DNA from: Tribonema minus
Taxonomy: Eukaryota; Sar; Xanthophyceae; Tribonematales; Tribonemataceae
DNA: 64,000 nucleotides
Direction: 5' to 3'
Assembly: GCA_017506865.1 (NCBI GenBank)
Contig: JAFCMP010000533.1
Span: forward strand, 612,999 to 676,998
Below the pieces are notes generated by a model, which did not search any database, was not told the DNA's origin, and saw nothing but the letters and a program-made list of their open reading frames with translations. The translations under genes were made by a program, and so were the position numbers. Below are positions 4,846 through 64,000 of this stretch, piece by piece. How positions within the stretch are numbered: position 1 is the stretch's first letter; each line of letters begins with the position of its first letter.

Positions 4846-4887
4846 CAGGAAATCATACATGATTGTGATAGAGCAACAGATCAGCAC

Positions 4888-10235: not shown

Positions 10236-10451
10236 TTGCATCACAGCGCCGGCGCCGCCGCAGCCGCACGTTCGCCCCGCAGCGTGTCTGCGGCGGCAGC
10301 GATGCCGCCATCACAAGAAGCCAGCAGCACTGTCGCCGTCACATCACAGCACCGCCGCCGCCGCCGCCGCACGCTCGCCCCGCAGCTCTGCAACAAAGAC
10401 AGCGGCGGCGGCGGCAGCATCACCAGAACCAGCAGCACTGCCGCCGTCACA
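10236..10451 (-). repeat. Echo copies of the Doa10 terminal exon beyond its stop
   Basis: Two diverged copies (about 10240-10300 and 10345-10410) of the sequence encoding the C-terminal AAELRGERAAAA stretch lie just past the stop at 10452. They are tandem duplicates of the last exon's 3' end, about 105-110 bp apart. Confidence 0.75.
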
Positions 10452-13400
10452 TCACAGCGCCGCCGCCGCCGCCGCCGCTGCCGCCGCGCGCTCGCCCCGC
10501 AGCTCTGCAGCAGAGACAGCGGCGGCGGCGGCGAAAGCGGGGTTGCTGGCGTGCGCGTCGCCGTTGACGGCAGAGTGTCGGTGCATGCGCGCGACCGCCG
10601 CGGGGTGGTTCTGCAGGCGCAGCCCGCGCAGGTAGCGGTCGTCGCGCACGCTGTCGTGCAGGCTGCGCAGCCAGCGGTGCACAGGGCCGCTCAGCGCCTG
10701 CGGGGGAACGAGGGGAAGGGGAGAGGCGCGGCGTTTGTTGCGGGGTGTTAGGTTTTAATTGTGGATGGGTGGGTTTGGCATGTTTTGCAGGCTGCGCAGC
10801 CAGCGGTGCACGGGGCCGCTCAGCGCCTGGGGGGGGGTGAGGGGGTGGGGGGGGGGGGGCAGGCATTTAGTTCGGGTGACGGGAGTGGGCTGTATGGGGG
10901 GGCGGGGGGAGGGGGGGGCGAGAGACGCGGCGTTTGTTGCGGGTTATTGGTGTGGGTCATGAGTACGTTTGACATGTTTTGCAGGTACTAGCGGTGCACA
11001 GGGCCGCTCAGCGCTTGCGGGGGGTGGGGGGACGGGGGGAGGGGGGGGGGCAAACGGCGAGGGCACGTGAGCGTTTGCGGGTAAGTGGTGTGGTGCATGA
11101 GTAGGTTTGGCATGCTTTTGCAGGTACTAACGGCGCAGCACAGGGCCGCTCAGCGCCTGCGGCACGCACGGCGGAGAAGGGGGCGTGATGGGATGTTTGT
11201 TGCGGGTTGTTGGTGTCGGCGATGAGTAGGTTTTGCATGTTTTGCAAGAGCTACAACTTTTGGAGGGGCTCACAAGGGGTGGCGGTCATCGCGTGCAGTT
11301 CTGCGGGCGGGCTGCGGAGGCGAGTGGCGCGCAGCAGTAGCGCTCAAGGGCTGTGACAGCGGCGGCGACGGAGTGCACGACAGCGACTCTGGCACAGAAA
11401 ACACCGCACGCTCACGCGCGCGTGTAGTGTGCCAGCATGAGAGTTGCACAAAAGCGAGGTTTTGAAGTTTGTTTCTGACTGCAAGTGCCCCTTTTGTGGC
11501 GGACTGCATGCTCGGAATCGAGCAGACTCACCACGTGCCCCACAAGTACGCCCTTTGCACAGCATGCTATCATGTCGAGGTTTGCTCAAGACGTATTCCT
11601 GGTCGCCAAATGCGCCCTAAATACGCCTCATAGAAGTACGTTTTTGTGCAACCCTAGCCGCGACGCATGGCTGCGCCGTGCTCCGGCACCTCGGCGCGTC
11701 TGAGCGCTATGTAGATCATTGCTCGGCAGAACGGATCTGCAACACGCACACATTTATAAATAAAAGCACACCACCTTCTACACTACGCGCATTCAAGAGC
11801 GCTGTCGATAGCTGCTGCACCTCCTGAGTTTGGGCTACCAGCTGGAGCTGGCCTACCAAACACGTGAGATCTTTCCATACTGAACACCCATTTGCCCTCG
11901 AACGCTACAGAGCTCGCACACAGAAGTCTTTTGACCTGTGGATATGATGGCACTGTTTGACTCGTGGCCAATGACTGCAACAGCGGCGACCACGGTTATT
12001 GGTGGAAGGCACTTGCGGCTAACCATCCTTTGTCACCTAGAGCTCTACGATCTTTTGATTCGTTTCCAATATATACATAGAACCTTTGTGTTGGGGGCTA
12101 TCGGCTGGAGCTGGCCTACCGAACACGTGAGACCATTCCATACTGAACGCCCATGCCTCAAACGCTAAAAAGCTTGCACACAGAAGTCTTGTTGCCTACT
12201 GTGCTTATGGTGGCACTGTTTGACTCGTGGCCAATGACTGCAGCAGCGGCGATGGGTCAACGGTTATTGGTGGAAGGCACTTGCGGCTAACCATCCCTCG
12301 TCACCTAGAGCTCTGCGATCTTTTGATTCGTTTTTCTTACATAAATCTAGTGCGTAAGAGTGCATACGTACCTGCCCCAGCAGGATCATGACGTACGCCA
12401 GCAGCGCGCTGCGGAAGACGAGCAGCTGGAACGCGTGTGCGGGCAGCTCCACGAGGCCGCGCGCCGTGCGCGCTACGAAGGCGCCGGCGGGCGTGCGCCC
12501 CAGCCCGCGCGCGCGCGCTAGCGCCGTCGCCACCGCCTCTGCGTGTACAGGAATGCGACCATCCGCAGAGGCGTGGTGGTGAGGCAACAAGGTAGCAGTG
12601 AGGTAGGCACATGGGCGTACGTTGCTGCTAGGAGGTGTGATGTGGCGCTGCGGGGGCCTTATGGGTGAGAGCGCGCGCGTGTTGCAACTGCACGCGGGGG
12701 TGGTTGCAAGTGGCAGTGCGCGGCTCAGCTCATGTTGAGGTTGGGTTAGTTAGGGTTAGGGGTAGGGCTAGGTTAGCGCTGTGCGCCTGGGTGATGTCGA
12801 TACAAGGCATCTTGGCACCTGCACGACACCAGGTGTTGTCAATACAACACATCTTGGTACCTGTACGACACGCTACGCCTGCCGGTGCCGCCGTGTGCGC
12901 ACGCGTATACGCACAAGTCACAGGTTACGGATGCACTGGTCTGCACAGCATCACGTGCCGACATGAAGAAAACCCCACGCGGCCCTAACCCTAGCCAACC
13001 TGAGCCCAACCATCACTCCGATCCTCACTCCAACCCTAGCTCCTACCGCAACTGTGACTGATACGCACGTGCTGCCATCCCACGCGCGCAAACGTCAGAA
13101 AATGAGTCGCATCAGCGCTCTGATGTGGCAGCAGCGCTCACCTGACAGCGAGTCCGTCGTGCACACGAACCGATGTCAAACAGATGCAGCTAGAATTCCT
13201 GATGTATCCTAATGTTCTCTCAAGGCTGAGGCAGACGTGTAGCCATCGTTACAGAGGCGCACGTGTTAACGCACGAGTTGCGTCAGCGCTCCGAAGCGGT
13301 AGCAGCGCTCACCTGGCGGCGAGTTCGTCGCGCACACGAAGCGCAGGCGCGGTCAGCGTCATCGGTCACCAATGCAATGGTCTGTGGCGTGTTACATGGC

Positions 13401-16400
13401 GGCACTGGGGCAGCCCCCAGCTACCCTAACCCTGGCTGATTCCAACCCCACACCCAAGCCTAATCCTCCGTACGGCTCACCGTGACCCTAGTGTTTTTAA
13501 CCCTGATCGTAGCCCTTGCGCCCTGCCGCGTGCGCGCGCATGTCAGAAAACAAGTTACATCCAATTCAAAAAACGGGTCGCATCAGCGCTCTGAAGTGGC
13601 AGCAGCGCTCACCTGGCGGCGAGTCCGTCGCGCACAGGAAGCACATGGCTGCGGTGACCGCCGCGGGCACCGCCGCCGCCGCGGCGACGCCGCCGAGCGC
13701 CGGCAGCGCGAGCCGCAGCAGCAGTCTGCGCGCTTTTTCCGCTGCCCTCGGCTCGCCCCCCCTGCCCTCCAGAAGCAGTGCCCTGATGCAAAATTAGGGT
13801 TAGGGTTAGGTTGAGGGTTCATGCGAAGTGCGACGATAGACAATTGAAGGTGGGTGGGTGAGTGCGTGGCGGTGGCTGTGCTGTTGCTGAGATGTCGCTG
13901 CTGCTGCACGTGACTGAGAGGCGGCGGCGGCGCCCTGATGCAAAATTAGGGTCAGGGTTAGGGTTAGGGTCAATGCGAAATGCGATGATGGACAACAGAG
14001 GGTGTGAGAGCGTTGCGGTGGCTGGAGCTGTTGCTGCCATTGCTGCTGCTGCTGCTCGTGATTGAGAGGCGGCGGCGGCGCACGCGCGCAGAGGAGCGCC
14101 GCCGATGCGCATCCGTGCGGGGTCACAGCGCAGCGGACGCTAAAGACAGGGGGGATGCTGCTCATTACTGACAAGGCGGCGACGCAACAGCGGCACACGC
14201 GCAGAGCGCTGCTGTGAATGCACGTTTGAGCAGGCTCACAATGCAGCGTGAGCTCAACCGGCAGGGGGATCGCGCACGCCACGACAGCTCCGCTGTAGCC
14301 TGCCGCCGCAGGCACACAGCTACCCAACACGAGGCCCCGGGTGCTGTCAGTCTACGGCGCGCCGCTCGCCACGCCCGCACGCACAAGGATACATACATAT
14401 CAACACGCGTATGAAGGGCTGGTAGGGTCACGACTTGCGGCGTTGCAATGACCGCATCACGGTCCTGCGCTGCCAGCCTGTTGTCGATGCCAGCGCTGTT
14501 CTGGTCGCAGCCAAATGTTGGTGCCACCGTACTTTTCGCCACAACGGCGTCAGGTGCGCTTTCTCGTGTGATTTCCCTCGCAAATCTGTGGGCGCCGAGC
14601 GCGCCGCGCACATAAAGCACATAACCATAATGCTGCTGCCGACGCGCAGCCACCCGCGCGCGAGGCGCGGCATGCGCGCTGTCAGACTACAGCACGCCGC
14701 TCGCCACACCCCGCACACACACAACCATACGTACATACATACATACATGTCTACATACCTGTGGGCGCCGAGCGCGCCGCGCACGCGCGCGCGCCACGGC
14801 GCGCCGCCGCCGTCGCACAGCCCCACCGCCGCCGCCGCGGCCCACGCCGCCTGCGCCGCTGCCGCCGCCGCAAACCAGCGCGCCGCCGCCGCCGCGGGCC
14901 GCTGCAGCGGCGACAGCGCCGCCCAGCCGCCGGCGCGCCAGTCCGCCGGCGACAGCGCGCACGCCGCGCGCAGCAGCGCCGCCACGAGCGCCGGCGTCGC
15001 GAGCCCCCAGAGCGCCCAGAAGAGCGCGAGCGCTGCGGCGCAGGCGGCGGGGAGGGGGGGGGGGCGCCACGCGGGGGCGCGCGCTGCGGCGGCGGCGGCG
15101 CGCGGCGCCGCCCAGACGAGGCACCTGCGGAGAGAGACGGCGGGGGGTGTGGGGGTGGGGGTGGGGGGGGAGGGGGGCGGTTGTGTTTGAGATTTTGGCG
15201 ATGTGTGTGCGTGAGCGGTCAGTCACCCAGCCAAGGGGGGGGGGGGGCGCACGAGGTACCTGCGGGGAGAGGCGGCAGGGGGGTAGGGGACATTTGTGTC
15301 GGGTGATGCATGTGCGTGTGAGCAGTCGGGGGGCAGGGGGAGCGGGGGGGGGAGGGGCATACGAGGCACGGCGGTGGCGGCGGCGCGACGCAGCTGAAGA
15401 GGGGTGTAAGGGGCAGTGCAGGCGGCGAATCATGGCACCTGTGTCGCCAATGGCTAAGCTGGCATGTGCCAGTCTTGGAGGCGGGGGCAGGCGCCGCGGT
15501 GGCAGCAGCAGACGCCCGTAGCCGCGCGGATAGCAGTGTGCCGCAGCAGTGCTCAGCAGCAACACGCCTGTCATGCCGCGCCAGCACATCAGCAACGCGC
15601 CATCTTGGCAGAAGGCGAACTGGGGGCGGCGTACGTTTTTTTGTTGGTCTAGGGTAGGTTTACTTCCAGTTGCCAGCCCTATACCCTGCGGCAGCAGCAG
15701 CGCGCACCCATGATGACAATGTAGGCCAGCCCAGCTGAATCAGGGAATTTGAGAGAAAGGAGGATTTGGGGTATGAATCTCTCTGCATTTCTCATATCCT
15801 ACACCCTACGGCGGCACCAGCGGCAGCAGCAGCGCTCACCTGATGATGACGATGCCGACTGCGAACGTGAACGGGTCGTGGGACCACGCCAGCGGCATGC
15901 GCAGCGCGCTTTGGGTATGTATCGCTCCACATTTCGCATACCCCATACCCGAGCAGCAGCGCTCACCTGATGATGACGATGCCGACTGCAAGGCAAATGG
16001 CATATGTATCGCTCCACGTTTTGCATACCCTATACCCTAGCAGCAGCGCTCACCTGATGATCACGATGCCCACTGCAAACGCGGGTCGTGCGACCACACC
16101 AGCGGCACGCAGCCACATTTCACATGCCCCTTTCTATATATACATATCCTACAGCGGCGACAGCAACAGCGCGCGCCCACCTGATGATGACGATGCCCAC
16201 CGCGAAGGCAAATGGGTGGTGCGACCACGCCAGCGGCACGCGCAGCGCGCCTGGGGTATGTATCGCTTCACGGTTCACTTACCCTACACCCTACGTATAC
16301 GCCACCAGCGACGGCAGCAGCGCTCACCTGATGATGATGATGCCGACCGCAAAGGCAAACGGGTCGTGCGACCACGCCAGCGGCACGCGCAGCGCGGCGA

Positions 16401-19400
16401 ACGCGGCGCGCCCGAGCGCGAACGGCACGCACACCGTCGTCGCGCAGCGCGCGAGCGTGTGGACCCAGGCCACCGCCAGCAGCGCCGCCATCTGCGCGCG
16501 CGCGCATGCGCAAGGGGGAAGGGGGGGGGGGGGGGATCAGCATGATATGTGACGGCGGCCGCGGCTCAGCGAGAGGGTGCCAACTGATATGCGCGCAAAA
16601 AAATTGAGGCGCGGCGTCACTACGACCGTCGACGAGATATGTGGCAGGGCCCCGCTGATACTGCCTGTGCCAGGGAGGCGGGCAACGAAGTACCACTTCT
16701 TGCTCAGGGTGCGCAAAGCCAGACTATTGATGTCAAGCGTGCTACCAGAGACCACTTCAACAAAGTGCTTTCATGCTCGCTGACGATCAGTCTTGGTGTT
16801 GGGCTTAGTCCGTGGTGAGGATTCGGCATAGGCTCGCAGCTGTGCAAGCGCAGAACCGCGTCTACCACCGCTATGTGACTTCTTTCTTGTCGATTCTCAG
16901 TTGGGGCACGAAAAGCTGAGATAATTAATGTCAAGCTTGGTACCTGTACTCTATGGAATCCAAACCCTAATCCTAAACCTGCAACATAGTGACTTGCGAC
17001 TCACCGGCTGCGCGACCTAACCCTAACCCTAACCCTAGCCCTAACCCTGAGCCTGTGCTTCTTCCACTTTGCCGTACCAGTGGACTCACCCTAACCCAAA
17101 GCCCGACCCTATTGACCCTGAACCCTAATCCTGACGCAAGCCCTTACCCTTACCCTAACCCTAACTCTAACCCTAATCCTACCACGTAGAGGACTCACCG
17201 GCAACGCGACCCCCAGCCTGCCCTGAATATAAAACCTAACCCTAACCCCAACCTAGCCCCAATCCTAGCCCTAATCCAAGAGTTAACCTTTACTTCAACC
17301 CTACTTCTATCACATAGGTGACTCACCGGCGGCGCGACCCCGAGCCTGCCCTGAGGGCTCCTGCGCGGTGCCAGGCTGCGCTCGACGGGCCCCTTGTACT
17401 CGCCACCCCACGCCCACCGTCCCTGACCAGATACAAAACGTAAATAGCATAAAAGTTCGTGTCGCATTTCAGCACACCGTCGAGCATTTACACACAGCGC
17501 AGTGGCGCAGATGAATGATTGCAGTTCGCAGTTCGTTCCAAGGGGTTCAGGCGGGGTGCCAGGCTGCGCTCGACGAACCTCCTTGTACTCGCCGCCCCAT
17601 GCCCACCGTCCCTGTTTACATGCAAAATATGTCAGTTAAGGTCGTGACGCATCCAAGCAGATGCGCTTGGGGATAGGTTTAGCATGAGGTTTCGTTGCGG
17701 AGCGTCACAACGCATTCAAGCAATTGAAGTTCGTTCCCCAACCGTCGCTGACCAGATGCAATGCGTCATCTGCGGAAGGTCATGGCGCATTTCAAGAATG
17801 TGAAATCTGCTGCTGCTTGAGGGGGTGAGGCAGACTGCGCTCTGCGGCCCCCGTGAGAACTCGCCGCCCGAGCCCGTGAACAGCGCACGCAACCAGCGCC
17901 GAGTAGCACTTTCCAGTAGGGAGTAGGGAGTGGCAAATTTGGAAGCGCTCGGAGCACACCACCCGCAGCCAACACTACAGCGTTGCACGCACACCTGCCT
18001 CTGGTGAGCGCACACACGAAACTCTCTCCTCAACTTCAACTTGAACTGTGTATGCGCACGCGGCACCGCTCGTCACCTGGTGCGCGGCCGCGGGGTCGTC
18101 CCAGCCGGCAGTACCGAAAATCGTGAAGCCGGCAGTACCGTATAGAAGTATCGTGAAGTCTAAGCCCTTCGGCACTTCGAATCTGCGGCGAACACACGAA
18201 CCTTGTCTCGGTAACCTCAAGTTGAAGTACATCCTGCGTGGCAGCGCTCGTCACCTGGTGCGCGCCCGAAGGGTCGTCCCAGCCGGGCGGCGTTCTATGG
18301 GGCCCCTTGCACTTACCTGCCCCCCGCCCCTGGACAAGTATAGAAATGTCAGTGCCAGGGTGCGTGTGCGTGCGTGCGCGGGCAGCTGCGACCGCAGGCG
18401 AGTAGCGCATTCGGATATTGTGTTCATCGCCTGATGCGCGCCCATGGGGTCATCTGCGCTCCAGCCCTCCGCCTGACCTCCCTTACTCACAGGGACTCAG
18501 AGCACACCGCCCAGAGCTGATACAACAGCGTTGCACCTGCTGCACGCGCAAGCGTAAAAAACCCGGTAACCTCAAGTTGAAGCACATGCGTACGCAGCAG
18601 CGCTCATCACCTGATGCGCGCCCGCGGGGTCGTCCCAGCCGGGCGGCGGCCGCACGAGCGGCGCGCCCACCACAATGCCGTCGTCCTCGTCGCTGCCGCG
18701 CAGGCCAGAGTCGAGAGCGATAGGCGCATCTGGGGGAGCGGGGGGGGATTTGAGGGGGGGGAAGCTGCGATCAGGCAGTGCCAGGGTGAGGGAGAGCTGA
18801 GCAGTGATCACGATAGGGCGCCAAGCTGGGGAGGAAGGGGGGGGGGGTCATGATCAGGCAGGGCCAGGAAGAAGGAGAGCTGAGCAGTGATCGTGAGCGC
18901 TGCTGTGTAGACCAAAGTCCAGAGCGATGGGCGCCACGTTTGAAGGGGTGTGTGAGGGGGGGGGGTATACATATACGCGTCGAAATTCACGCCGTCCAAA
19001 ATTTCTACTGTCTATGAAACGCATGTTGCACTTGCACTTTTGAAGTGTTTCTTGTTGAAGTGCTTCTTGCTGAGGAAACCAAGGAGTTTGTATTCACATT
19101 AGAGGTCAGCGGGGGGAGCGGCAATCAGGCAGTGCCAAAGAGAGGGAGAGCTGAGCACTGATCACGAACGGGCTCACGCACTGCGGCGGCCATGCGCAAC
19201 CGTGGAGCGACAGCGGTCAATGGAGGGTATGAAGTGAAAGCGATGGGCGGCGGCGCCGCACAGTGAGGCAAGCCAGCACGGAGGATGGGGGGCGAGCTAA
19301 CGGCCGACCACGCAACCCTAACCCTAACCCTAACTTGAAGCTGGTGCAAGGTGTTGGGCAATGTTGTTGCCCCCTCAAATCGATGTGTCAGGCAACGTTG

Positions 19401-22400: not shown

Positions 22401-25400
22401 TGTTGTTACCTTTGAGTGCATGTGGCAAAAATAACACTTCTTCATACACATGGAAACGAATTAAAAGATTGTATATATATATATATAGAAGTACATATAT
22501 ATACTTCAAAGTATATATATTACTGCAAATAAAGTGCAATATACAAATACGTGTTGCTTGTCTGTGGGTGCCATGCGGCAAAGCGGACCTTGTAGCGCTC
22601 CACGAAGGCTAGCACGGCCAGGTGGGACACGACCAGCTCCATGCACATAGATTATACAAATACATGCTATGCATTCATGTGAACGTGCATCCATGTTAAA
22701 ACAACGTGCTTCCTGTATGGATGTCTCTCTCCATATTTACTGTTTACATTGTGGGACATACAAATTTATGTTGTTTATCTTGGCGTGCATGTCGTTACAG
22801 CTAACCTTGTAGCGCTCCAGGAAGGCCAGCATGGCCAGGTGGAACACGACAAGCTCCATGGGCACCTGTAGCTGCGGCACGAGGTACTGCAGCCGCAGCG
22901 CCACTGGCAGAACCCCCGGCAGCGCCGCCTGTTGCGAGGTTCGCATGCGAGAAGTTGTCAGGTGAAGATGAGCTGATGCAACACAGTAGGCCTTCAGCAT
23001 CGTGTGACAGCATTGCGCCAGTATTCACAAGTGGCTTTTTTGTTGTTGCTGGCGTGCATGCCACCGGCAGAACCCCCGGCAGCGCCGCCTGCGCGGGCAG
23101 CGCGAAAGGGGGCGAGGTGAAGATGAGACAATGCTACAGTAGGCCTTCAGCATCATGTAACGGGTACTGCAGCCGCAGCGCCACCGGCGGAACCCCCGGG
23201 AGCGCCGCCTGTGTAGGGGCAGCATAAAACAGTTGAAGATGAGCCGATGCCAGGCCTTCAGGACCGTATACCTACTTAAGGTAACAGCTTCTGGGTCAGT
23301 GTTGAGAAGTGGTTTGTTTGCCGTTGCTGATGTGCGTGCGAGCGGTGACGGCAGCAGCATACGCTGCCATTGCACAACTGGAGATGATTGAGTGTCGGCG
23401 ATGGCAGCAGCATACCGGCGCCGCGGCGCAATTGATATTGCTGATTTGTCAGCGCTGGCAGCAGCATACTGCGATGCGGCGCAATTGATCTTGCTGCCGT
23501 GCCAGCGTTGGCAGTAGCATATGCCGCCGCGGCGCAACCATGTTGCTGATGTGACTGCAGCTGCAGCATCATAGAGCTCTACGATCTTTTGTTTCTTTGT
23601 CCATGACACTGCGGCGCATTGTTTTTTGTGACGCGCCAGCGGTAGCAGCAGAAAACCACGCTGCGTTGCAATATTGCTGACATGCCTGCGCTGGCAACAG
23701 ATTACGACACGGCGGCGCAATGCAGATGGCGAAGCTCGTGGCTGTAAGTGTGTCACGCAGACGCAGGATACCGGCAGTGTGCACTTGCGAGTACTGAACG
23801 AGATTTGCGTGCTGCTGCATACTTGCGCCTGGTGGTGTCTTTCATGCACGGTTCACATCACAGTGCGTGCCGCCACACCACCACACACAGGGCAGCAGCG
23901 GCGCGATGCGTGGAAGAGCATTCTGGGCACGTGGTACTGATGCGCGCCGAGAGTGACTTGAAGTTGAAGTTGACCCTGCCTGCGGCCCCAAGATACTTCC
24001 AACAAAGGTCATACACTGCAACAAAAAACTTCACAGGAGGAGCGACGTCGGTCGCATCAGCGAGCTCATCGCAGCGATGCACGACGGCATAGAGATGAAG
24101 AGCAGCACTTGATATCAGATACTTAACATCACCACTGCAACACGACTCACCGCCGCGATGCGCGACGGCACCCAGACGAAGAGCAACAGCAGCGCCGCGT
24201 AGGTAGCTAGTGTACGTTAAACATTGTACCTAGGCTTGGCCCTGGCACTGACCTTAAAACCCCTCGCCTGTTCAAGCTACTTCAGCATCACCACTTCAAC
24301 TCACCGCGGCGATGCGCAACAGAACCCAGACAAAGAGCAGCAGCAGCGCGACGTAGATGGCCAGGCTCATGGCCATGCAGCGCGCGTGCGCATCGGGGCA
24401 TGCACTCACCGCGTTGCGTCAACCTCAATCCCTGACCGTGAGCCTCAACTACTTCAACATCACCACTTCGACTCACCGCGGCGATGCGCGACGGCACCCA
24501 CACGAAGAGCAGCAGCAGCGCGACGAGGATGGCCAGTGCACGCTAGACATTATCCGCAAAGAGGGTCGGCCCTACCCCTGACCTAAACCCTTGGCCTGTT
24601 CAAAGCTACTTCAGCATCACAAATTTCGACTCACTGCGGCGATGCGTGACGGCACCCACACGAAGAGCAGCAGCAGCGCGACATAGATGGCGAGGCCCAT
24701 GGCCATCCGGCGCGCGTGCGTGCGCATTGAGAGATGCACTCAGCGCATTGCGTCAACCTCAATTCCTGACGCGTGAGCCTCAACTACTACAACATCAACA
24801 CTTCAACTCACCTCGGCGATGCGCGACGGCACCCAGATGAAGAGCAGCAGCAGCGCGACGGACATGCCCAGGGCACGCTGTATCATTGTACCTACAAAGA
24901 TGGGCCTTACATCTGACCCTAACCCTTCGCCTCTTCGAAATTGTTCTATATCACCACTTCAAAGAACAACTCACCGCGGCGATGCGCGAGGGCACCCAGA
25001 CGAACAGCAGCAGCAGCGCGACATAGATGGCGAGGCTCATGGCCATGCGGCGCGCGTGCGTGCGCCCGCTCTCCTGCAGCAGCGACCCCAGCAGGTCGGG
25101 GTGTGGCTCCTGCGGCCGGATGACGCCCGCCAGAACCTGAGGGGGTGTGTTGGGGGGAGAAGGCATCAATTAAGCAAATTGTGGAATAAGGTCGTACAGG
25201 GGGGGGGGGGGGGGGGGGTATCAATCAAGCAAGTTGTGGAGTCAGGTGGGGGTGCAGTTCATGCGGCTGGACGCCTGCCAGAACCTGAGGTGAGGGGGTG
25301 GGGTGGGGGTGGGGGGGAGGCATCAATCAAGCAAGCTGTGAGAATCTGAGGGGAGGGGGTTGGGGGGGGGGGGGGAAGAAGGCATCAATGAAGCAAGTTG

Positions 25401-50613: not shown

Positions 50614-52367
50614 CTCAGATGTTAATAGCAGTGCTTTGTTGTCCTGAAGTTGCTGAGCGCTGATTCGCGCACTGCTGGTGCTCCTGAATCCTATTGCTAC
50701 GCAATATTGTCACGTTGCATGCCGATCGCGTATGATGGCACTACTGGCGTTTGTCGCGCGCTGGTGTGTTGAGCGCTGCTGTGGAGCCGTGTACTCGTGC
50801 GTTTTCACATTCGTTTTCTTTCAAAGTCTGCTGAGCACTGACAGCACAGCTGATCTGCTGCCTGTTGCCATTCAATCCTGTACATGATGAGCACATGCGC
50901 GCTGATTAGTGCTACTTGTTGCCTAGAGCGCCGCGGTATGCCTGCTGTGATAAGTAGCCACGTGACGGAAATGCACAAAAATCAGCTCTAAGAAGAGTCA
51001 GCACTGATGGGATACAAATGATTAGGTGGCAAACTGCCAGGATGGCCTACTCTTGCGCCATGGCAACTGGCAGTGGCGCACCTTGAGTTCTATCCCAAAA
51101 GTTTTACGGATGTTGAAAGGACAAACGTAGCACGCAAATACGTTTGTAAACGAGCACAAAAACCGTACGTGACATGAGCGAGCTGCGCCAGGCGTTGCCA
51201 CTTTCGCCATTTGCTTTCAGTAGGGAAAACCAATTGATGCTTGGCGATGCTGGCGCATTACGGCGGCGCGACTCGCCCCACCTCTCAAGTCGAAATCGTT
51301 CTTGCTTTGAGGACCACGCTGCACCGGTAAGCATGCAGGCGCCGCATGCATCCTCTGTGCTGACCCGGATGCTTGCCCTAACCCTAACCCTTCTCAGGCG
51401 CCCCCATCGCACGTTGAAGCTGCTGCACAGCGCTACAGCATTATCTTGCCACCAAACCGCGTGCTGCGCACTGTGGGCAATACATCAGCGGCTACCTCTG
51501 CTGAATGATGGTGTGTAATGGAGTCAACCTAGTATAGCATATGGCTACACCCTAAGGCAAAGCGTGTATTTCAGTTAGTATTTGGGTGAAATGCACAACG
51601 ATCAGCTTCAACAGTCAGCACTAATGGACATGAACGTCATATGTCATGGTAGACTGTCATGACTCTCTAGTTTTGTAAGCACATGGCAACTCCCACACCG
51701 TTTTCACAAGTGTTACCGACACTGCACAGACACTGCATGCAATACCTGCTCGAGCTTCCTGGTGCCTGTTGGACCGCATAACTTGCCTTTGGACATGAGC
51801 GTGTGTGCAATATAATATGCCAGCAACAGATCATGCAAGTGACGAAAACACACTAAAGACGCTTTGACTGACTACTCGACTGGGTGTGCGGATTGCACAC
51901 AGAGTTGAAACAATCACACACAAGCACTGTGCGGCAGTTTGCGCCACCTCTCTGCCCAGCCAAATGCGTTTTTGCGGCATCTACGTACATGCATATGGAC
52001 TGCGTTTTGAAGGCAAGAGGACAGCACAAAATGAACCGCAAAACGGCATGGTCTTGTGCGCTGAGCGTAATGCGTGTGTAGTCAGTGCTCAGTGTGATGC
52101 GTGTGCAGTCAGTGCTCAGCTGCACTCTGGGGACGCGAGTGACAGCGGGTTTGATGTGCGGTAGGGCTGCAGGCAGTCTGATAAGTTACGACATCTTGAG
52201 GCACTGCGAGGACGCCAAGTCTACCAGCTATGATGCATCTCGCCTTGTGTGTGCTCATTTCACACATAACACTTTCTTTTTTTGAGATAGTGCACATGCG
52301 CGCACAGCACGCGTCTCAGGGTATCCATCATGCAACAGCGCTGAGACCTGACATATCTTTTCACCGA
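50614..52367. other. Intergenic, no gene recognised
   Basis: Short unrelated frames only. A two-and-a-half-unit CCCTAA tract lies at about 51375-51395. AT content is higher than in the flanking genes. GTCAGTGCTCAG recurs at 52080-52125. Confidence 0.5.
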
Positions 52368-54560
52368 TTCCACATGCTACACGAGCTGCACGCTCAATGG
52401 ACAGCAGCACATAATGTACAGTATTAAGCAACGCTGCGATGTGCGGTGATCAAGTGTACACATGCGCCATCAAGCACCAGCAAGAAACGCGATGATGCGG
52501 GCAATGCGCGTGTTAGAGAGAGACCACCGGCGTGCAGAAAAGTCAAATCGTAATGGTATTTATAGCACAGCAGAGGAGCACCGGCGGCTTCATCACCTAC
52601 GCCAGCGCACCAAGCGCAGTTTTCGACAGGCATCTAGTGTCGTCAATAACCAAAAACCCGCAACCTATTGCAGATGTGAGGCTGCAGTCTCCAGTACAAT
52701 ACTGTACAAAGCAGTACAGGCAGAGTACAGCTGCTTATGCCATCGCGCAGAGCGCATGGTAGCAGCGGCTGTGCCGTCTTGGAGTCTTGATCAAAATGGG
52801 TGATGGTGCCCCCGAACATATTGCGGACTCAGAATGCCCCCCCCCCCCCATGTGTAGGTATGTAGGTAAGGGATGACGTCCGGCAGAAACTCTTATGCCA
52901 TCGCGCAGAGCGCATGGTAGCAGCGGCTGTGCCGTCTTGGAGTCTTGATCAAAATGGGTGATGGTGCCCCCGAACATATTGCGGACTCAGAATGCCCCCC
53001 CCCCCCATGTGTAGGTATGTAGGTAAGGGATGACGTCCAGTAGAAACTCCGGGGTATAGGCACTCCAGGGCGCTCGGTCATCCGCAGAGTACATGCGCGG
53101 CAAAGAGACAAATGCAGCAGTAAACAGCGCAGAAAGCGGGTCAGTTTGTAACGATGGGCGAGCTTTGATGAGTTGAGCACTGATGGCAGCAGTGTTGAGG
53201 TAGCACATGTGAAACGGAATGGAGTAATCCAACCCCGCATGTTTTTGTCACATTCGTTGGAACAAGCCGTTGCCAAGCACGAAGGACAGACTGTGCTGGA
53301 GCTGCATTTGCCTTCAATGTCTTACACAAAGCAACGGTGGTTTTCAACATGCTCAGTACATGCAGCGATGCAATCACAGCAATGAGTTCTGAAACCCTTA
53401 CCTGCCCCCCTGTGGGCAGAAGCAGTCCCCGTGGCGCGGGGACAGCTCCAGCGTGAAGGAGGGTAGGCAATGCACCTGTGAACAGCAAGCAGGGCAAATG
53501 CATGCTGAGGTGAGCACATGCGTGCAGCAGTTGGTGAGATTGCAGAGGGTTCATAGAATTGCAAGGCCAAAAGCGGGAGCAGAAGAGCAAGCAGCAGGGG
53601 GCAAGGAAATGCCACGCTACCGTGCACAATAGCAATGTGAAGTGACAACGACTGGTGCGAGCTCAGGGTACTCATGGCAAAGCCTGCGAAACAACATTTC
53701 TCAGAACTGCTCTCACCTCCCCTTCGTCAGCGCTGCGGCGGTCTCGTCGTCCGCTGGCTCGTCGCTATCAGGCCCCCTCTCCCACTCTTGTCCCCGCCCC
53801 GAGGCGCCCAATCCAAACCTCAAACCTTGGCCGCACGCCCAAGCCCAACTCCCAATGATGCTCAACTTCACTCTCTGTGCGGCTCCTTTCCGGCGCTGCC
53901 GCAGCGGCTGCAGCCTCGTCTCCCCCTCTTCTTTCCGCTCCGAGTCGCCCAAACCAAACCTCACAACTTGGTCCCACGCCCGAGCCCAGCTCCAATGACG
54001 CCCAATTCCACTCTCTGCGCGGCTCCTTCAGGTGCTGCGTCCAGCCTCGTCTGCAACTCTTCTTTCCGCTCCGAGTCGCCCAATCCAATCCTCACATCTT
54101 GGTCCCACACCCGAGCCCAGCTCCAATGACGCCCAATTCCACTCGCTGCACGGCTCCTTCAAGTCTTCATACCCAAGTTGCCCATTGGAAGCGGAAGTGG
54201 GCTGGGGCTGCAAAACCCTCTCTGGGGAAGTGCAGAGCATGATGCTTTACATACATGACGCTGTGCATACAGGCCGGTCAGCCGGTGGGGCAGAGCGCTC
54301 TTGCAGTATCCAAGGGCTGCCAGAGCGCTTTGCTCAAGTGGCGCAACAAGGCACCTCCCTGAGCAAAGCGGTCTCACAGTCCCTGAACACCAGGTTCGTT
54401 CAGAAGGCCACCGAAGCGAGTCTGCGCCTGTCCGACGCACGCTGCCGCTTCAGTGTAGCCAGCGTTATCCCTTCCTTTGTCCACCAGTCGCTGCCGCGTA
54501 CTACGACCCTAGAGCCTTCAGAAATGGCTACCACTTCCGCGCTACTACAGTAAGGTGGCA
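52368..54560 (-). repeat. Gene-like repeat element, copy A
   Basis: Read on the minus strand, this 2.2-kb block matches copy B (59310-60985) over most of its length. Its 5' end as drawn (52368-53706) also matches copy C in inverted orientation. It contains protein-like stretches: SDWWTKEGITLATLKRQR with a stop after SVAF (54400-54550), a three-unit repeat with EWNWASLELGSG (53800-54170), and an 80-bp segment at 53405-53480 with acceptor and donor. The family is unrecognised. It could be a duplicated multi-exon gene or an element that carries one. Confidence 0.8.
52739..53053. repeat. 158-bp near-perfect tandem duplication
   Basis: The two units start with GCCATCGCGCAGAGCGCATG at 52739 and 52897 and include the CCCCCCCCCC run and GTGTAGGTATGTAGGTAAGG. 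It sits inside repeat copy A and is absent from copies B and C, so it is recent. Confidence 0.95.
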
Positions 54561-55081
54561 GCTCGCGCATCACCCCTCCCGCAGCAGGCCTAACGAGGCT
54601 CTGGCCGCTCCTCCTCCTCTCCCGCCGCCGCGCTGCTACTGTGAGAGCCACCACCAACGCTGCACGGCGGGTAAGTAGCCGTTACAAAAAAAACGGCTGC
54701 AGATATATCAAGCACTGCAGACAACTTCAGACAAAACGCAGAAGCTCGCTGCTCTCTCGCTCTGCAGCGCCAGCCAAGCGTGGTGATGGGCTTGACAAGT
54801 TTGCAATTGGCAGCGGAAGATGAGGCCTTGTTAATATGTGTTCTGCTTCCAGAACACAGTGCTCACCAAATGTTGGGTGAATGAGATGAGATGAACGACA
54901 ACGGGGAAAGAAGGAAGTTCAACCAAACGCTAGTTCAACAACATGAAGTTGAAGTCTGAGATCCAAAAACCGAGAGGGAGAGAGGGGGGGGGAGAGAGAG
55001 GGACAGCGTGTGTGTGTGCAGCCTGGAGTCTTCATCATCGTTGCCGCTCAGAGGCGATGGGCGTCCGCCCCGAAAACGGCG

Positions 55082-55276
55082 GATGACAGCCAAAATGTCA
55101 GGGGGGGAAGTGCCCATGCCCAGCCTCGTGCCGCTGCACGAAGTGCGGCTGGACAATCCGCTTTCCATAAGCAACGTGCAGCAGCTGGAATTTGTGGCGG
55201 CTGAGGCTGCGACAGTGCCGCGGGAACCAGTGCCGCGCATACTGCTCGATGTCAGGAAGTTGGCCGAGGGGCAGGT
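55082..55276 (+). CDS. Candidate first exon of an unrecognised gene
   Basis: An open frame starts MTAKMSGGEVPMPSL, continues HEVRLDNPLSISNVQQLEFV and RILLDVRKLAEGQ, and ends at GGGGCAG|GTGAGC, a good donor in phase 0. The composition looks coding (no low complexity). The segment at 55703-55778 inside copy C could be the next exon: acceptor TTCACAG|GTGCAT, residues ending SPRHGDCFCPQGG, donor GGGCAG|GTGAGG. I cannot name a family. An ATG at 55082 or the one at 55094 would start it. Confidence 0.4.
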
Positions 55277-55474
55277 GAGCAAATCGAATCGGATCTTGCA
55301 CTGCATGGCGGAGCATGCCACATGATGGCGTCGGCTGCATGTGTGCTGGTGCAGTGCTTAAGATCTGATGATCATGTGTACATCGTGAATCCGCAGACCG
55401 CAAATGCCGCAGCCAGTCATCAACAGCAGCATGATTTGGACTTTGCGTGAGCACTCAAGCTGCATTTGGGCACT

Positions 55475-56690
55475 GAGAAATGTTGTTTCGCAGGCTTTGC
55501 CATGAGTACCCTGAGCTCGCACCAGTCGTTGTCACTTCACATTGCTATTGTGCACGGTAGCGTGGCCTTTCCTTGCCCCCTGCTGCTTGCTCTTCTGCTC
55601 CCGCTTTTGGCCTTGCAATTCTATGAACCCTCTGCAATCTCACCAACTGCTGCACGCATGTGCTCACCTCAGCATGCATTTGCCCTGCTTGCTGTTCACA
55701 GGTGCATTGCCTACCCTCCTTCACGCTGGAGCTGTCCCCGCGCCACGGAGACTGCTTCTGCCCACAGGGGGGCAGGTGAGGGTTTCAGAACTCATTGCTG
55801 TGATTGCATCGCTGCATGTACTGAGCATGTTGAAAACGACTGTTGCTTTGTGTAAGACATTGAAGGCAAATGCAGCTCCAGCACAGTCTGTCCTTCGTGC
55901 TTGGCAACGGCTTGTTCCAACGAATGTGACAAAAACATGCGGGGTTGGATTACTCCATTCCGTTTCACATGTGCTACCTCAACACTGCTGCCATCAGTGC
56001 TCAACCCGTCAAGGCTCGCCCATCATTCAAAAACTGACCCGCTTTCTGCGCTGTTTACTGCTGCGTTTGTCTCTTTGCCACGCATGTACTCTGCGGATGA
56101 CCGAGCGCACTTGAGTGCCTATATCCCGGAGTTTCTACTGGACGTCATCCCTTGCCTACATGCCTACACCTGAGGGGGGGGGGGGGGCATTCTGAGTCCG
56201 CAATATATTCGGGGGCACCATCATCCATTCTGACAGATACTGTTGTGAGCTCTAGGACGTCAGCTCCAAAGACGGCACAGCCGCTGCTACCACGCGCTCT
56301 GCGCGGTGGCATGCGCAGCTGTACTGTGCCTGTACTGCTTTGTACAGTATTGTACTGGAGGCCCCCGCCTCACATCTGCAATAGGTTGCAGGTTTTGTGG
56401 GTATTTACAACCACTAGGTGCCTGTCTGGAACTGCGCTTCGTGCGCTGGCGTAGGTGATGCAGCCGCCAGTACTCCCCTGCTGTGCTATAAATACTATTA
56501 CGATTTGACTTTTCTGCACGCCGGTGGTCTCTCTCTAACACGTGCATTGCCCGCCTCATTGTGTCTCTTGCTACCATGGTGCTTGATGGGGCATGTGTAC
56601 ACTTGATCACCGCACAAGAGCAGCGTTGCGTTTGAGAGCTGTACATGGCTGCTGTCCATTGAGCGTGCAACTTGTATAGCATGTGCAATC
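55475..56690 (+). repeat. Gene-like repeat element, copy C
   Basis: It is an inverted copy of 52368-53706, running from CTGAGAAATGTTGTTTCGCA and GGCTTTGCCATGAGTACC to GAGCGTGCAACTTG. It lacks the part of A and B beyond that junction; the unique exon at 55082 lies there instead. Copies A and C form a 1.2-kb inverted repeat around a 1.8-kb centre. Confidence 0.9.
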
Positions 56691-59309
56691 TCTTGCTGGT
56701 GCTTGCTGGTGCTGGCACACTCATTTGCCTCCCGATCGCAGCAGTGCTTGGAGCTTTACATTATGTGCTGCCGTCTATTGATAGTGCTACATGTGTAGAA
56801 TATGGAATCTGTAATGAGCCATGTCAGCCCTTGGTGCTGTTGCATGAAGGGTGTGTACCGTGAAGAGACACGCATACTGTGCATATGCGCATGTACACTT
56901 GTACGAACGTTGTTGCATGAACAGAGCTTTCATTTCTGCGCACATGGCTGCTTACACCAGGCATGAGTCCCTACAGTAGCACAAACAATGGGACATGACA
57001 TTTCGAAATGAGCACTGCATTGTGAAACTCGCAGGTGCAGACACACTTGCCTGGCAGTGCCCCTCAACATGCGTGATGCTTGTGATGATCTAGTCACACT
57101 GGCCTTGGCAAGACCCGCTGTCACTCGCGCGCCCCGACGCGCAGCAGCTACTGAGCGCTGACTGCACACGAGTCAGTGCTCAGCGCACTTCTGCATTCAC
57201 CGTGTGCGTGTGCTGCCCTCTTGACTTCAAGTCACACTTTTGGTGCATGCATACAGATGTCGTAGGAACGATATAAATTGGGCAGAGAGGCGACAGAAGT
57301 TGCCACAAAGTGCTGCTGCATGATTCCTTCTACCCTGTGTGCAATTCGCTTATCCAGCCGAGCTGTCGGTCAAAGCGTCCTTGTGTGCCTTTGTCACTTG
57401 TGCAAACGCAAATTTTCAAAAGCAAGTTATGCGGTCCAACAGGCAGCAGGAAGCTTAAGCAGAAATTGCATGCAGTGACTGTAAACAATAGGATGTACTT
57501 ACCAGTAGTTGTAGTACTTCAAAACATGCATTATCACGCCCTCTGCTTGCAGGAGAGCAACCTGCAACTGTGCACATGCAAAGTGCCCGCTCAACATCTA
57601 TTTCTAGATGGAAACAACAACTGCTGCATGCATACGCTGCCGTACGCCCACAATCAATCATGATAACCTGACCACAAAGTATCATTTCACGCGCACCACA
57701 TGACAGCAGGCTTGCAAAAGGGGTGGCCTGCTCTGAACATTCGCTGTTGACGCCACATAATGCCAGTAACTGATGCTCGATGCAGAAACGCACACCAGCT
57801 TGTCATCTTGACCTTCACGACCGCAGAACACAACCGCAGTTGAGCAATGCTGCTGGTGTATCAGTACTCATCGTTTTCACAAGACCAATCTAACCCTCTG
57901 CATATCATCATCATTCCGCTCACTCTCCGCGCGTTAATCCTAACCTTAACCCTAAATGCTAGCAGCAGCACCCCGCTGCGCTGCCACTATACCAACTGCA
58001 GTGCTGCCACATCCCCACCCAGCCCATCTCCTTTCCACGCTGCCGCTGCCGCCGCCGCCTCCGCCGCTGCTGCTGCCGCCCCCGATTACCACCAGCAGTG
58101 CTGTCACATCTGCCGTACCCATCGCCTCTCCACGTCGCTGCTGCCGCCGCTGCCGCCGCCGAGCCCGCCGCCGCCGCTGCCGCCGCCGAGCCCGCCGCCG
58201 CCGCTGCCGCCGCCGCCGCCGAGGCCTTTCCCGCAGCGGAGCGAGCGTATCGTGCGCTGCTGACGCTGCTGAGCACTGTGCATCCAGCTTGTCGCGGCGC
58301 TCCAGTGAGCGCTCCAGTAAATTGGACGGTCTCAGTGCGGGGTCGTAGAGGGCACGCGCCATACCGATGTCGGCGAACGCTGCTGCATGCGCGCGGCAGT
58401 CGAGCGCTGCAACGTGCCGCAACGCCGCCGGTTGTGGTGCGCGTGCGGTGTGCGCAGCTCATCCACCTGAAGGCATGCAGCGAGGGTTGCAAGAGACTGC
58501 GCATTGGGTACTTCGCGGCAGAACTAAACGTATGGTCCGTCACTCAAACAGCCTTTCTTAAAAGAAATTGCTGCTATGGCAGAAATTTAGGACCTGCCTT
58601 CTGGAAACAAAACACAAAATGGGTCAAATTGCGGCTGCCTTTTGTGTCTGTACTTGCGGCACATGCGCACAGCAAACTCAACACCACCACCAAACACACG
58701 AATTAGAAGTACGAAGCATGCGCGCTGTTCAAGCTTCACATCCGCAACCTCGTGCAACAGCCGCTGGTTTGCACCGTCCGCAACCGCGGCGCAACGCTCA
58801 CCTTTTCGTCCACGACATGGCCGCCTCCAATGCAAGTTGCACCGCCAGCGTCGCAGTTTCAGCCTCTTCCTCTACCTGCTTGGCAGCGCGCCACGCAGTA
58901 GAGCGGAGCGCTGGAGTGCGCGGCGCCGCGCGTCTCGTGCCGCGCCGCCGCCGCTCCTCTGCGCAGCGGCGTCGCCACACCGCCACCCCATGCTCCTGCC
59001 ACTGCGCGGTGGCCATTTCTGCAGCGCACCTCTGCATGAGTTGCGACAAAGGCCTGCCGCGTGCTACTACAGAAATTCTCAAGTGAACAAACTAAAGAAA
59101 TTGAATATTCCTTTTTGTGCCTCGCCTCCCCCTTTTTCCCCCGTTGTTTCTTTCCCCCGTTCCCCCAAAAGTAACGGCTCGAGGTTTTGTGTTGGCGATG
59201 GCTCAGCGGCTGTGTGTGTGTGTGGTGTGGTGGCTCGAAGGTTGTATTGGGCAGGCGATGGCTCAGTCTGTGTGTGTGGTGGTGTGGTACGCGGTGGGCG
59301 CCACGCCTG
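56691..59309. other. Mostly unrecognised; GC-rich coding-like stretches on minus strand
   Basis: 56,700-57,900 shows nothing. 58,025-58,225 is a GCC/GCT repeat. On the minus strand, 58425-58240 reads ALDCRAHAAAFADIGMARAL, then PSNLLERSLERRDKLDAQCS; 59060-58800 reads CAAEMATAQWQEHG, then AAKQVEEEAETATLAVQLAL. Both look like predicted coiled-coil exons of one unknown minus-strand gene, but I could not join them with confidence. Confidence 0.35.
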
Positions 59310-60985
59310 AACTAGCGCGTAAGTGGTGGCTATTCCTGAAGGCTCTACGGTCGTAGTAAGGCGGTGCAGCGACTGGTGGACAAAAAAAGGCATAACGCTG
59401 GCTACACTGGAGCGGCAGCGTGTGTCGGATAGGCACAGACCCGCTTCGGTGGCGTTCTGAAAGAACCTGGGCTTTCGGGACTGCCAGAGCGCTTTGCTCA
59501 GAGGCGCTGTTGCTGCATCTCTTGAGCAAAGCGCGCTGGTACTTCCCGGAAGACTGCAAGAGCGCTTTGCCCCACCGGCTGACCAGCCTAAATGTAGAGC
59601 TTCATGCTCTGCACTTCCCTAGAGAGGGTGTCGCAGCCCCAGGCCACTTCCGCTTGCTGATGGTGCCAACGTGGTGGGCGACGAGGCTGGGCAGCGGCTG
59701 AAGGAGCAGTGCAGCGAGTGGAGTTGGGCATCATTTGAGCTGACTTGGCTGTGAGCTCTGGATTGGACGCCTCGGAGCAGGAACAAGAGTGGGAGACGAG
59801 GCTGGTGCAGCATCTGCAGGAGCGGCGCAGCGAGTGGAGTTGAGCAATCACTGGAGCTGAGCTTGGCTATGGGATCGAGGTGGGATGTTTGGAATGGGCG
59901 ATCTGGAGCGGGAACGAGAGCGGAAGCGAGAGTGCTGATGACCTCAAGCCAGTGGACAACGAGCCAGGGCACAGCGCTGAGGAGGGAAGGTGAGAGTGTA
60001 GCTGAAAACGACAATGCTTTGCCGTTCTGACTGCGCAATGAGTCTAAACCTTTTGCTTGTGCCAGACGTTCGTCAATGAACTTTGAAATGTGTCGTGGTG
60101 CAATGTGTAGCGTGGCATTTGCTTGCACCTTGCTGCGAGCGCCGCTGCTCCGCTTTGCCTGCAGCAATTCCCCAAATTGACCCCTCTACAATCACCTGCC
60201 TACTGCTGCACACATGAGCTTACCTCAACATGCCCTGCTTGCTGTCCTCAGGTGTGCTGCCTACCTACCTACCCTCTTTGGCGCTGGCGCTGTCCCCGCG
60301 CCACGGGGACTGCTTCTGCCCACCGGGGGGCAGGTGAGGCTTTCAAAACCCTGCATCTTTGCGCATCGCTGCATGTGCTGATCCCATTGACCACAAATGT
60401 CACGTCATGCAAGACATCAATGGCGTCCGCAAATCAGTCAGCATCGATCGCTCATGCTGACTTGGGCTTGTCTCGCAGTGAACTAGCATGTCAGCCAGAT
60501 GGGGGAAAGAAATGTCAGTGCTCAGCACATCAATGATCGCCCATAGTTCGTGACTGACCCGCTTTCTGCGCTGTGCACTGCTGCATTTGTCTTTCTGCTG
60601 TGGCATGTACTCTGCGGCGGACCGAGCGCGCTCAACGTCCTTCTAGGGCGCATCCTATATGATCCCATGCACCTACGGCGGTGGAGCTCAAGCTGTGTCA
60701 TGGTCCGCAATACATTATGTGGCATCATCAGCCCTTCTGATCAAGACAGTTGTCAATACCAAGAGGGCACATGCTCTGCCAACGCGCGCTCCATGAACTG
60801 GCATGCGCAGTTGGTACTGTGCCTGTACTTAGCTGTACTGGAGGCCCCTCGCATCTGCAGTTGAATTGTAATGCGGAGCAGTCCGGAGTTCGCCATGTAC
60901 CTGCCCAGAGATGCGCTTTGTGCGCTGGAGTGAGCTTGATGCAGCCACCGGCGCTCGCAGCCGTGCCATAAATATCATTGTAATT
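59310..60985 (+). repeat. Gene-like repeat element, copy B
   Basis: Plus-strand copy of element A. The SDWWTKKGITLATLERQR frame ends at the same stop after SVAF (59370-59460). The middle tandem units are reduced to two. The 60252-60338 segment keeps acceptor and donor but has an 8-bp expansion (CTACCTACCTACC) that changes frame. It is the most diverged of the three copies. Confidence 0.8.
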
Positions 60986-62016: not shown

Positions 62017-63962
62017 TTAAGGGGACAGGATGTGGGGGAAGAACGACTCCAGGACGCTGATGATGGCGCCCAGCAGACCCATGATGATGCCGATACCGAC
62101 AACACCGTAGTTGCCAATGGCCTCGAAGCGGCGCTTGCCCGCCAGCTTCACAACTCCGTCCCTCACCTGTCATGAGAACATACGCGGCGGTGTGAAGCAT
62201 GAGTCGATAGGTTGTGCGATGTCGATGTGCAGTACTTTTGAACAATTGCGCATGTATCATTGCGTGCAGATTGAGCGGCTACGTCAGGATGATTGTGGGA
62301 CATGCTTGTGATTACTCGCGAGGTGGAATGGCAGCGCCAGTGGGCGGCCATAACACGCCAGATGCCGATTACATATCTACGATAGCCTTAAAGCGCCGCT
62401 TGCCCGCCAGCTTCACGACGCCGTCCCTCGCCTGCCGTTGCGACACGCGCGGCGGTGTGATTGTGAGACGCTACGCCATGACGATTGTAGATACGCTTGT
62501 GAGTGAGTACTTGTGAGGTGAAATGGCAGCTACGGCGGCCACGATACGCCCGACGCCGATCACGCGTAGCCGCCGATAGCCTTGAAGCAGGCTTCACGAC
62601 GCCGTCCCGCACTTCATGGCCCACGTGACGGTGGTAATTGCGAGTGGCAAGCTGGCTCTCAGAGGCAGGCATGGTAAGACACACTGACTGCCCACAGACA
62701 GGCGCAGCGCCCACCACGCACTTCCAGATGGCCTGTGAGCTGCTTAGAGAGGTAGGTTTTGGGGTTGGGGTTAGGCCACAACCCTAACCCTAACCCCTAA
62801 GGCGGTATCGCACTGTACATGTATCTGGAGTGGACGCGCTTCTCACTTGAAGTTACGGTTTGGGTTGGTACTGCGAAAAAGCTGTTGCGTCATGATGGCG
62901 CGCAGGCCATTGCCATGATCGACCACCGCCCTCTACGCGTCATGCCCCCCCCCCCCCCCCCCCCCCCCCCTTTGCCTAGATTTGAGGTGCAACGAGGTAG
63001 GCTACTGAAGTCTTGCGCAGAGTGGAGCGCGCCGCTGCAGCTGCCGGAAATACTACCATAATCAATGCAGCCACGCTCTCAGCGTCGCTCCGTGAGCGAA
63101 GGCGCTGGTGCCAAGCTCAACAACAGGTGCCCCACAGCCTGGTCAGGACAACACTTCCACCTGTGCTGAAACGCAAAATGCGCGTTTGTCACGTTCTTGC
63201 GCAATAGCGACAGTAATATGATCGCGGGGAACACGTGGATGAAGCCGCTCGCGCTACAGATCAGCCATGATCTTTGACCCTAACCCTATCCCGAAGCGCT
63301 GAACTCGCGCCCATTTGCAGGCGCACTGCAGCCTTTAGTGTTTTTAAAATTTTCACCCTCACCGGGCCAGGAACGTGATGCAAGTGGGACGCGGCTACTT
63401 GTCGCATCAACTTTTCACCCAAAACTTCGACTTCAAAAAACTTCAATTGTGACAAAACTTCAACTTCATCAAAATTTCGACCTCAACCCCCACTCACCGC
63501 GCCGGGAACTGTGCACAATACGCATGCTGCACCTTCTTGCGCAGCGGCGACAGGAACATGATGGCAGGGAACACGTAGATGATGCCGCTCGCGTTACATA
63601 TACACCAAACCCTAACTTTAAGCGCCGTTACCACACCAGTTTGCAGGCCCACTGCAGCCATTCAAATTGGATTGCGGTCTGCACTTGCGGCCTCTGCGGC
63701 GAAACCCAACACACGCGGGTGCATCACTCCCCTTCTTGCGCAGCGGCGACAGGATCTCGGTAAACACGTAGATTTGCCGCTCGCGATGAGCCATGATCGG
63801 CAACCCTAACCCTAACCCTAACCGCCAAACCCATGCCCAATATTCAGGCGCACTGCAGCCTTTAGTTCAAGATGCGGCAAAATACGCGTGCGTCACCTTC
63901 TTGCGCAGCGGCGACAGGAATATGATCGCGGGGAACACGTAGATGATGCCGCTCGCACTACA
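62017..63962 (-). CDS. Last exons of a multi-span membrane protein, possibly amino-acid transporter
   Basis: The terminal exon (62166-62017, 49 codons and TAA) reads VRDGVVKLAGKRRFEAIGNY and then a hydrophobic segment GIGIIMGLLGAIISVLESFF. An upstream exon near 63950-63898 reads SGIIYVFPAIIFLSPLRKK and ends AAG|GTGACG in phase 0, which joins the terminal exon in phase. A membrane span with FPA, a short basic loop, then a final span is the C-terminal layout of AAAP/SLC38-type amino-acid transporters; this assignment is tentative. The rest of the gene lies beyond the right edge. The upstream exon has several tandem copies, so which one is used is not certain. The terminal exon acceptor (GACAG|GTGAGG) is clear. 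Confidence 0.5.
62365..62625 (-). repeat. Two echoes of the transporter terminal-exon acceptor edge
   Basis: Copies at about 62385-62438 (AGCGCCGCTTGCCCGCCAGC, then CTTCACGACGCCGTCCCTCG) and 62580-62615 repeat the start of the exon at 62166, with shared GCGATCACG-type spacers. Confidence 0.88.
63185..63800 (-). repeat. Tandem copies of the penultimate transporter exon
   Basis: Copies at about 63192-63255, 63525-63590 and 63735-63785 match the presumed real exon (63898-63950): CTTCTTGCGCAGCGGCGACA, GGGAACACGTAGATGATGCC. Copies are separated by CCCTAA tracts (63262, 63603, 63790). A more diverged relative may lie at 63005-63065. Confidence 0.9.
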
Positions 63963-64000
63963 GATCAATCATGATGTGTAACTCTAACACTACCCGGCGA

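Follow-up and report, generated by a model that had tools for sequence, protein, structure and literature searches.

Introner elements, known from protists, are dispersed families of repeated intron sequence that carry splice sites. Introns may be gained by tandem genomic duplication, a recognised route (PMC3443670), and a tandem duplication across an intron–exon boundary has been described in a potato RdRp gene (PMC4974935). Decaying (pseudogenic) exons accompany 0.4–1.0% of mammalian genes (PMC2718932). Here we examine a stretch of 64,000 nucleotides, the window, at the end of contig C530 of the alga Tribonema minus (JAFCMP010000533.1, positions 612999–676998 of 676998), for which an earlier note had claimed that introns hold diverged copies of the edge of the adjacent exon. 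We confirm that these introns carry extra, decayed copies of the neighbouring exon end. We propose that frequent short tandem duplications, blind to gene structure and hidden by splicing, probably build and renew the introns, each of which would then be a fossil record of its exon.

Results

The sequence examined spans 264 kb on two contigs, comprising the window, the adjoining 100 kb (block A) and 100 kb of contig C323 (block B), a small sample of a genome of 158 Mb in 554 contigs. When each exon edge was compared with the 1.5 kb of intron adjoining it, a copy was present at 49 of 119 edges (29 of 61 donor and 20 of 58 acceptor edges), compared with ~1% of mismatched edge–intron pairs. Copies lay on the opposite side of the exon at 2 of the 119 edges and in reverse complement at 1, and mid-exon probes had a local copy in 2 of 30 cases. 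The earlier note had held that donor-edge copies always lie downstream and acceptor-edge copies always upstream; this is nearly right, with the two exceptions falling outside the window, where 15 of 39 edges had a copy and 0 of 39 had one on the other side. The adjoining 100 kb (15/39) and C323 (19/41) agree with the window, to which the pattern is thus not confined. When 19 exons similar to some other predicted exon were removed, 34 of 89 edges had a copy, against 0 of 89 on the other side. At least one copy was found in 11 of the 14 predicted genes having tested edges, and the spread across unrelated genes claimed in the note extends over several contigs.

Self-comparison of the sequence gave the same orientation. 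In the window, repeat pairs scoring at least 60 bits and less than 3 kb apart were direct in 82 cases and inverted in 2. For pairs of at least 45 bits less than 1 kb apart, direct pairs numbered 1.73, 1.18 and 2.40 per kb in the window, the adjoining 100 kb and C323, and inverted pairs 0.00, 0.01 and 0.05 per kb.

Edges were chosen independently of their repeats by means of a self-written, conservative two-strand hidden Markov model (HMM), seeded with exons of light-harvesting and SF3B6-like genes and then retrained on its own predictions. Earlier settings predicted too many tiny exons; the conservative settings used instead still fuse adjacent genes in places and call some copies as exons. 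The resulting models contain Pfam domains, including SAICAR synthetase (5e-57), bromodomain (4e-18), Ank, JmjC, RINGv and RRM_1, with no Pfam match in one of six model pieces of the SAICAR/bromodomain set and in three of seven sequences from window genes. Seventy well-scored exons provided 136 edges, of which 119 were testable after low-complexity probes and edges short of flank were dropped.

Copies that bridge the exon–intron junction number 112 from 48 edges, or 102 from 46 edges with a stricter anchor. The arrays in the window are as follows (window coordinates).

30034–31302, minus strand: donor-edge array of a MARCH6/Doa10-like gene, exon 31255–31575, 8 junction-bridging copies downstream
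34138–34623, minus strand: donor-edge repeat, exon 34526–34757, 1 bridging copy
25974–26440, minus strand: donor-edge array, exon 26391–26486, 1 bridging copy
24065–25065, minus strand: donor-edge array, exon 24975–25136, 6 bridging copies; the same exon has 1 acceptor-edge copy
22541–22860, minus strand: donor-edge repeat, exon 22806–22928, 1 bridging copy
22883–23345, minus strand: acceptor-edge repeat, exon 22806–22928, 2 bridging copies
18008–18648, minus strand: donor-edge array, exon 18611–18729, 3 bridging copies
15767–16396, minus strand: donor-edge array, exon 16328–16491, 4 bridging copies
13095–13655, minus strand: donor-edge array, exon 13613–13782, 2 bridging copies
10657–11246, minus strand: acceptor-edge array, exon 10456–10697, 3 bridging copies upstream
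39705–40097, plus strand: acceptor-edge array of a bromodomain gene, exon 40039–40185, 2 bridging copies
40776–41088, plus strand: donor-edge repeat of the same bromodomain gene, exon 40714–40815, 1 bridging copy
62117–62460, minus strand: acceptor-edge repeat, predicted exon 62027–62166, 1 bridging copy
45807–46562, minus strand: stop-codon array of an SF3B6-like gene (tblastn, RRM_1), coding end and stop at 46562–46507

The note gave one to ten copies per edge; bridging copies number 1–8 per edge, and the donor edge at 31255 has 10 further places with at most 4 mismatches in 17 nt, against an average of 0.02 after simple base shuffling of the stretch. The SF3B6-like array consists of three decayed downstream copies, each including the stop, and one more copy of the spacer, with no splice site involved. 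The repeat comparison detected no local arrays in the first 10 kb of the window.

Among the 102 copies from 46 edges, junction copies are spaced at a median of 163 bp (103–310 bp at the 10–90% points). Their exon part has a median of 44 nt (19–68 nt at the same points), for a median exon of 154 nt, so the 20–100 exon bases of the earlier note fit roughly. A single copy of the 102 reaches 0.9 of its exon. The copies add intron sequence and in this sense enlarge introns, as the note had suggested.

Most copies are non-coding and decay near-neutrally, while the exon, as master, evolves mainly at silent sites. Of 71 indels, 68 disrupt the reading frame. Changes confined to a single copy (private changes) are distributed about evenly among codon positions 1, 2 and 3 (73/72/93, p=0.17). 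States common to at least two copies but unlike the exon occur at 10, 14 and 47 sites at the three positions. Without duplicate-like exons, private changes number 44/48/54 and shared states 5/3/25, and exon-to-copy change is 0.092/0.100/0.185. Even private changes together with third-position shared states are the pattern expected of neutral copies of a protein-coding master, and the shared states fit births at different times, in line with the claim that copying was repeated over time. The copies look like neutral records of a constrained exon at various points in its past. In the donor-spanning alignments (24 of 76 pairs), substitution was 0.122 in exon-derived and 0.170 in intron-derived sequence, near the expected 4:6 ratio. 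Conservation of the exon-edge core was considered as a sign of function and rejected, as most of it is explained by a one-lineage divergence of ~9% for exon-derived sequence, compared with ~17% for intron pairs.

Some copies depart from this pattern. In the SAICAR synthetase and JmjC genes (C530:556395–557648, block A 43397–44650; C323:934906–935827, block B 34906–35827), some of the copies have an intact frame together with both splice signals, and the HMM called these exons. Judged by their sequence, they are candidate new or alternative exons.

Four other 10-kb regions (L039–L042) and ten light-harvesting loci were also examined, the genome having 92 matches to light-harvesting-protein exons. 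These proteins and their best structurally solved relatives indicate a photosynthetic alga of the red lineage, probably with chlorophyll c. Local direct repeats cover 33% of bases in L041 and 3% in L042 and are absent from L039 and L040, which have long open frames and no predicted introns. The phenomenon is therefore patchy and extends past the window. Arrays (at least 38 bits) occur at 3 of the 10 light-harvesting loci. L011 has two truncated acceptor-edge copies upstream of the exon. No such array occurs in the related L010, which is 90% identical to L011 across 768 aligned bases, so that arrays differ between close paralogues. At L017 the left probe of a homology-defined exon scores 75 against its own flank, and the array at L018 is located away from the exon match.

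Other features of these regions were noted. L039, a region of contig C112 with neither arrays nor predicted introns, has an open frame of 2201 residues from base 22 (plus strand). L013 and L014, and kinase matches on contigs C144, C223 and C278 and on C179 and C90, are identical or near-identical loci on different contigs; such loci are perhaps haplotypes retained in the assembly. In the window, overlapping open frames at 476–3654 (plus strand) are chained in different frames and contain what we take to be a P-loop-like helicase motif. No Pfam match was obtained for 476–2248, and the whole looks like a broken mobile element. An open frame of 718 residues at 4846–7002 (plus strand) has four RING-finger stretches. 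Long inverted repeats occupy 51726–60829, the best being 840 bp at 93% identity (52895–53704 versus 55473–56312). At 52734–53049 a 158-bp unit has a head-to-tail duplicate at 98% identity, one of two adjacent pairs of at least 97% identity in the 264 kb. Runs of the telomere-like hexamer CCCTAA/CCTAAC lie in or near introns at 17016–17048, 25857–25895 and 28660–28756.

Discussion

In the mechanism that we favour, short head-to-tail duplications (~100–310 bp spacing) would land regardless of gene structure, so that introns grow and turn over. The duplication step, presumably slippage or break repair, and its rate are what we infer. Selection would eliminate most duplications within exons. A duplication spanning a donor would be harmless if the first donor is still used, leaving a spare copy downstream, and one spanning an acceptor would be harmless if the last acceptor is still used, leaving a spare copy upstream; use of these outer sites is assumed. 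Judging from the anatomy, the rule of donor copies downstream and acceptor copies upstream would need no further cause than that the mRNA must stay unchanged. Copies would then decay as neutral intron DNA, and the real exon would change mostly at silent sites. Likeness between exon and copy would consequently outlast likeness between introns, making edges stand out.

Whether the edge is itself special was addressed with background rates and simulations. Windows with local copies make up 0.44 of donor edges, 0.34 of acceptor edges and 0.11–0.36 of intron positions away from edges (0.05–0.25 when one direction only is counted). In a second set of simulations (five settings, 150 loci each, no formal fit), untargeted tandem duplication with units of ~110–150 bp, near the measured spacing, fewer exon-derived indels and selection against altered mRNA produced more copies at the edge, and fewer with increasing depth in the exon, in a profile resembling the observed one. 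In one example the simulated copy frequencies at exon depths 0–80 were 0.29, 0.23, 0.18, 0.14 and 0.09, and the observed donor/acceptor frequencies were 0.33/0.23, 0.24/0.10, 0.13/0.14, 0.09/0.12 and 0.06/0.06. Since the untargeted simulation resembles the profile, the polarity follows, and the SF3B6-like array spans a stop codon with no splice site, a special edge process is unneeded. We conclude that filtering accounts for most of the edge effect: duplications at edges are tolerated and stay recognisable for longer. The claim of the earlier note that exon edges are the target or unit of growth is not supported, given this simulation, the stop-codon array and the copying of intron windows.

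Several observations nevertheless count against untargeted duplication. The exon–intron models were predicted from DNA sequence. The exon parts are short even where the exon is long (median 47 nt for exons of at least 150 nt, a single one of 60 exceeding 100 nt). A first set of simulations (five settings, 120 loci each, mostly with broad 200-bp units) gave fewer copies at edges than deep in the intron, and the second set predicts a flat intron profile, missing an observed drop in copy frequency from ~0.2 to ~0.1 past 380 bp into the intron. This drop could reflect exons that the models missed, or duplication that slightly favours sequence near exons. Between donor copies, indels are ~5 times rarer in exon-derived (0.011 per site) than in intron-derived sequence (0.052 per site), a deficit that we ascribe, presumptively, to composition. 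Splice dinucleotides are altered slightly less than neighbouring exon bases (p=0.045 for donors, 0.22 for acceptors), and 69 of 76 copies at donors and 33 of 36 at acceptors retain GT or AG; we give this retention little weight because the anchoring step favours copies with intact dinucleotides. Only 2 of 34 repeat pairs of at least 92% identity lie head to tail (2 of 5 at 97% or above and 0 of 29 at 92–97%, the score cut-off favouring short near-identical matches). Most of these pairs are short (median ~55 bp), are separated by ~250 bp of diverged spacer and are not whole young tandem units. The rarity of head-to-tail pairs is partly due to short matches passing the score only if near-identical, and later truncation would account for the remaining deficit; a copying mode that inserts at a distance from its source is also conceivable.

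A rival account is a process centred on the splice site, in which breaks, R-loops, template switching or selection for spare sites preferentially make or keep the edge copies. The higher copy frequency at edges than in intron windows, its fall deeper in the intron, the slight excess of intact dinucleotides and the rarity of young head-to-tail pairs would all suit such a process. Untargeted duplication with measured unit sizes, however, yields most of the edge excess, a like array spans the SF3B6-like stop codon, and junction anchoring biases the dinucleotide count. We regard a splice-site-centred origin as unlikely. We also think it rather improbable that edges are true hot spots of a transcription- or splicing-linked process, such as breakage at donors and acceptors, that keeps duplicating them, with surplus sites retained as buffers or stepping stones in the splicing of long introns and as a supply of new exons.

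The copies might instead be tandemly duplicated alternative exons kept for protein use, as would be suggested by the SAICAR synthetase and JmjC genes, where some copies keep the frame. Frame-breaking indels, private changes spread about evenly over codon positions and the partial extent of most copies make this very unlikely, and for most copies we reject coding alternative exons on the frame and codon-position evidence. Insertion of introner-like mobile elements beside exons would accord with algal introns full of repeated sequence bearing splice sites. Random edge–intron pairs match in only ~1% of cases, though, and two arrays searched over the whole 158 Mb are private to their own neighbourhood: with very common words skipped, no dispersed relatives were found beyond one ~70-base match and an alanine-rich exon stretch. 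We therefore reject the mobile-element reading as highly improbable. Assembly artefact is barely conceivable. Duplicated stretches do exist in the assembly (two of the ten light-harvesting loci are identical across 3411 bases), but the copies are ~9–19% diverged from the exon by codon position, carry frame-breaking indels, lie on several contigs and have a codon-position structure unexpected from misassembly.

Should the rate of untargeted short duplication hold, introns here would be largely made and remade by it, storing snapshots of the neighbouring exon, and one genome could address both the origin of intron sequence and the past silent changes of an exon. A coarse match to one of the five simulation settings corresponds to 0.006 starts of a duplication per bp while 0.3 substitutions per site accumulate, which, if true, amounts to ~1 duplication per kb of intron per 5% neutral change. 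Gene prediction calls for caution, as copies with intact frame became extra exons in two HMM gene models.

Among top-ranked matches in open-licence PubMed Central, no description of introns formed in this manner at comparable density was found, which is weak evidence of absence. The introns described here resemble introners in that repeated intron sequence bears splice sites; introners are dispersed, whereas the two arrays tested are each private to one intron and mismatched edges match at ~1%. In contrast to tandemly duplicated alternative exons, only a few copies keep the reading frame. The mark of local tandem duplication is present, in that copies lie on the same strand near their source (1.2–2.4 direct against 0.00–0.05 inverted pairs per kb). 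In the account of decaying exons (PMC2718932), disabled copies likewise sit beside their parent and decay, a sizeable part of them being young, and the copies here are similarly disabled and unconstrained (68 of 71 indels; 73/72/93). Most copies in that account include half of the exon or more, whereas here a short edge (median 44 nt) is joined to intron and 1 of 102 copies reaches 0.9 of the exon; and the 0.4–1.0% of mammalian genes involved compares with 11 of 14 predicted genes here. The intron-gain model (PMC3443670) has in common with our case a local head-to-tail duplication that splicing can conceal; there an exon-internal AGGT is duplicated to give a new intron, and here existing introns lengthen. 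In the potato RdRp gene (PMC4974935), as here, the 3′ end of an intron is duplicated together with the 5′ portion of the following exon. That case concerns one gene in which a new intron arose, whereas 49 of 119 tested edges are affected here, with serial copies. Events of this type are already known. What seems to be new, as far as the open-licence papers searched show, is how dense they are here, the succession of exon snapshots that they leave and, at the codon level, the sign of neutral decay.

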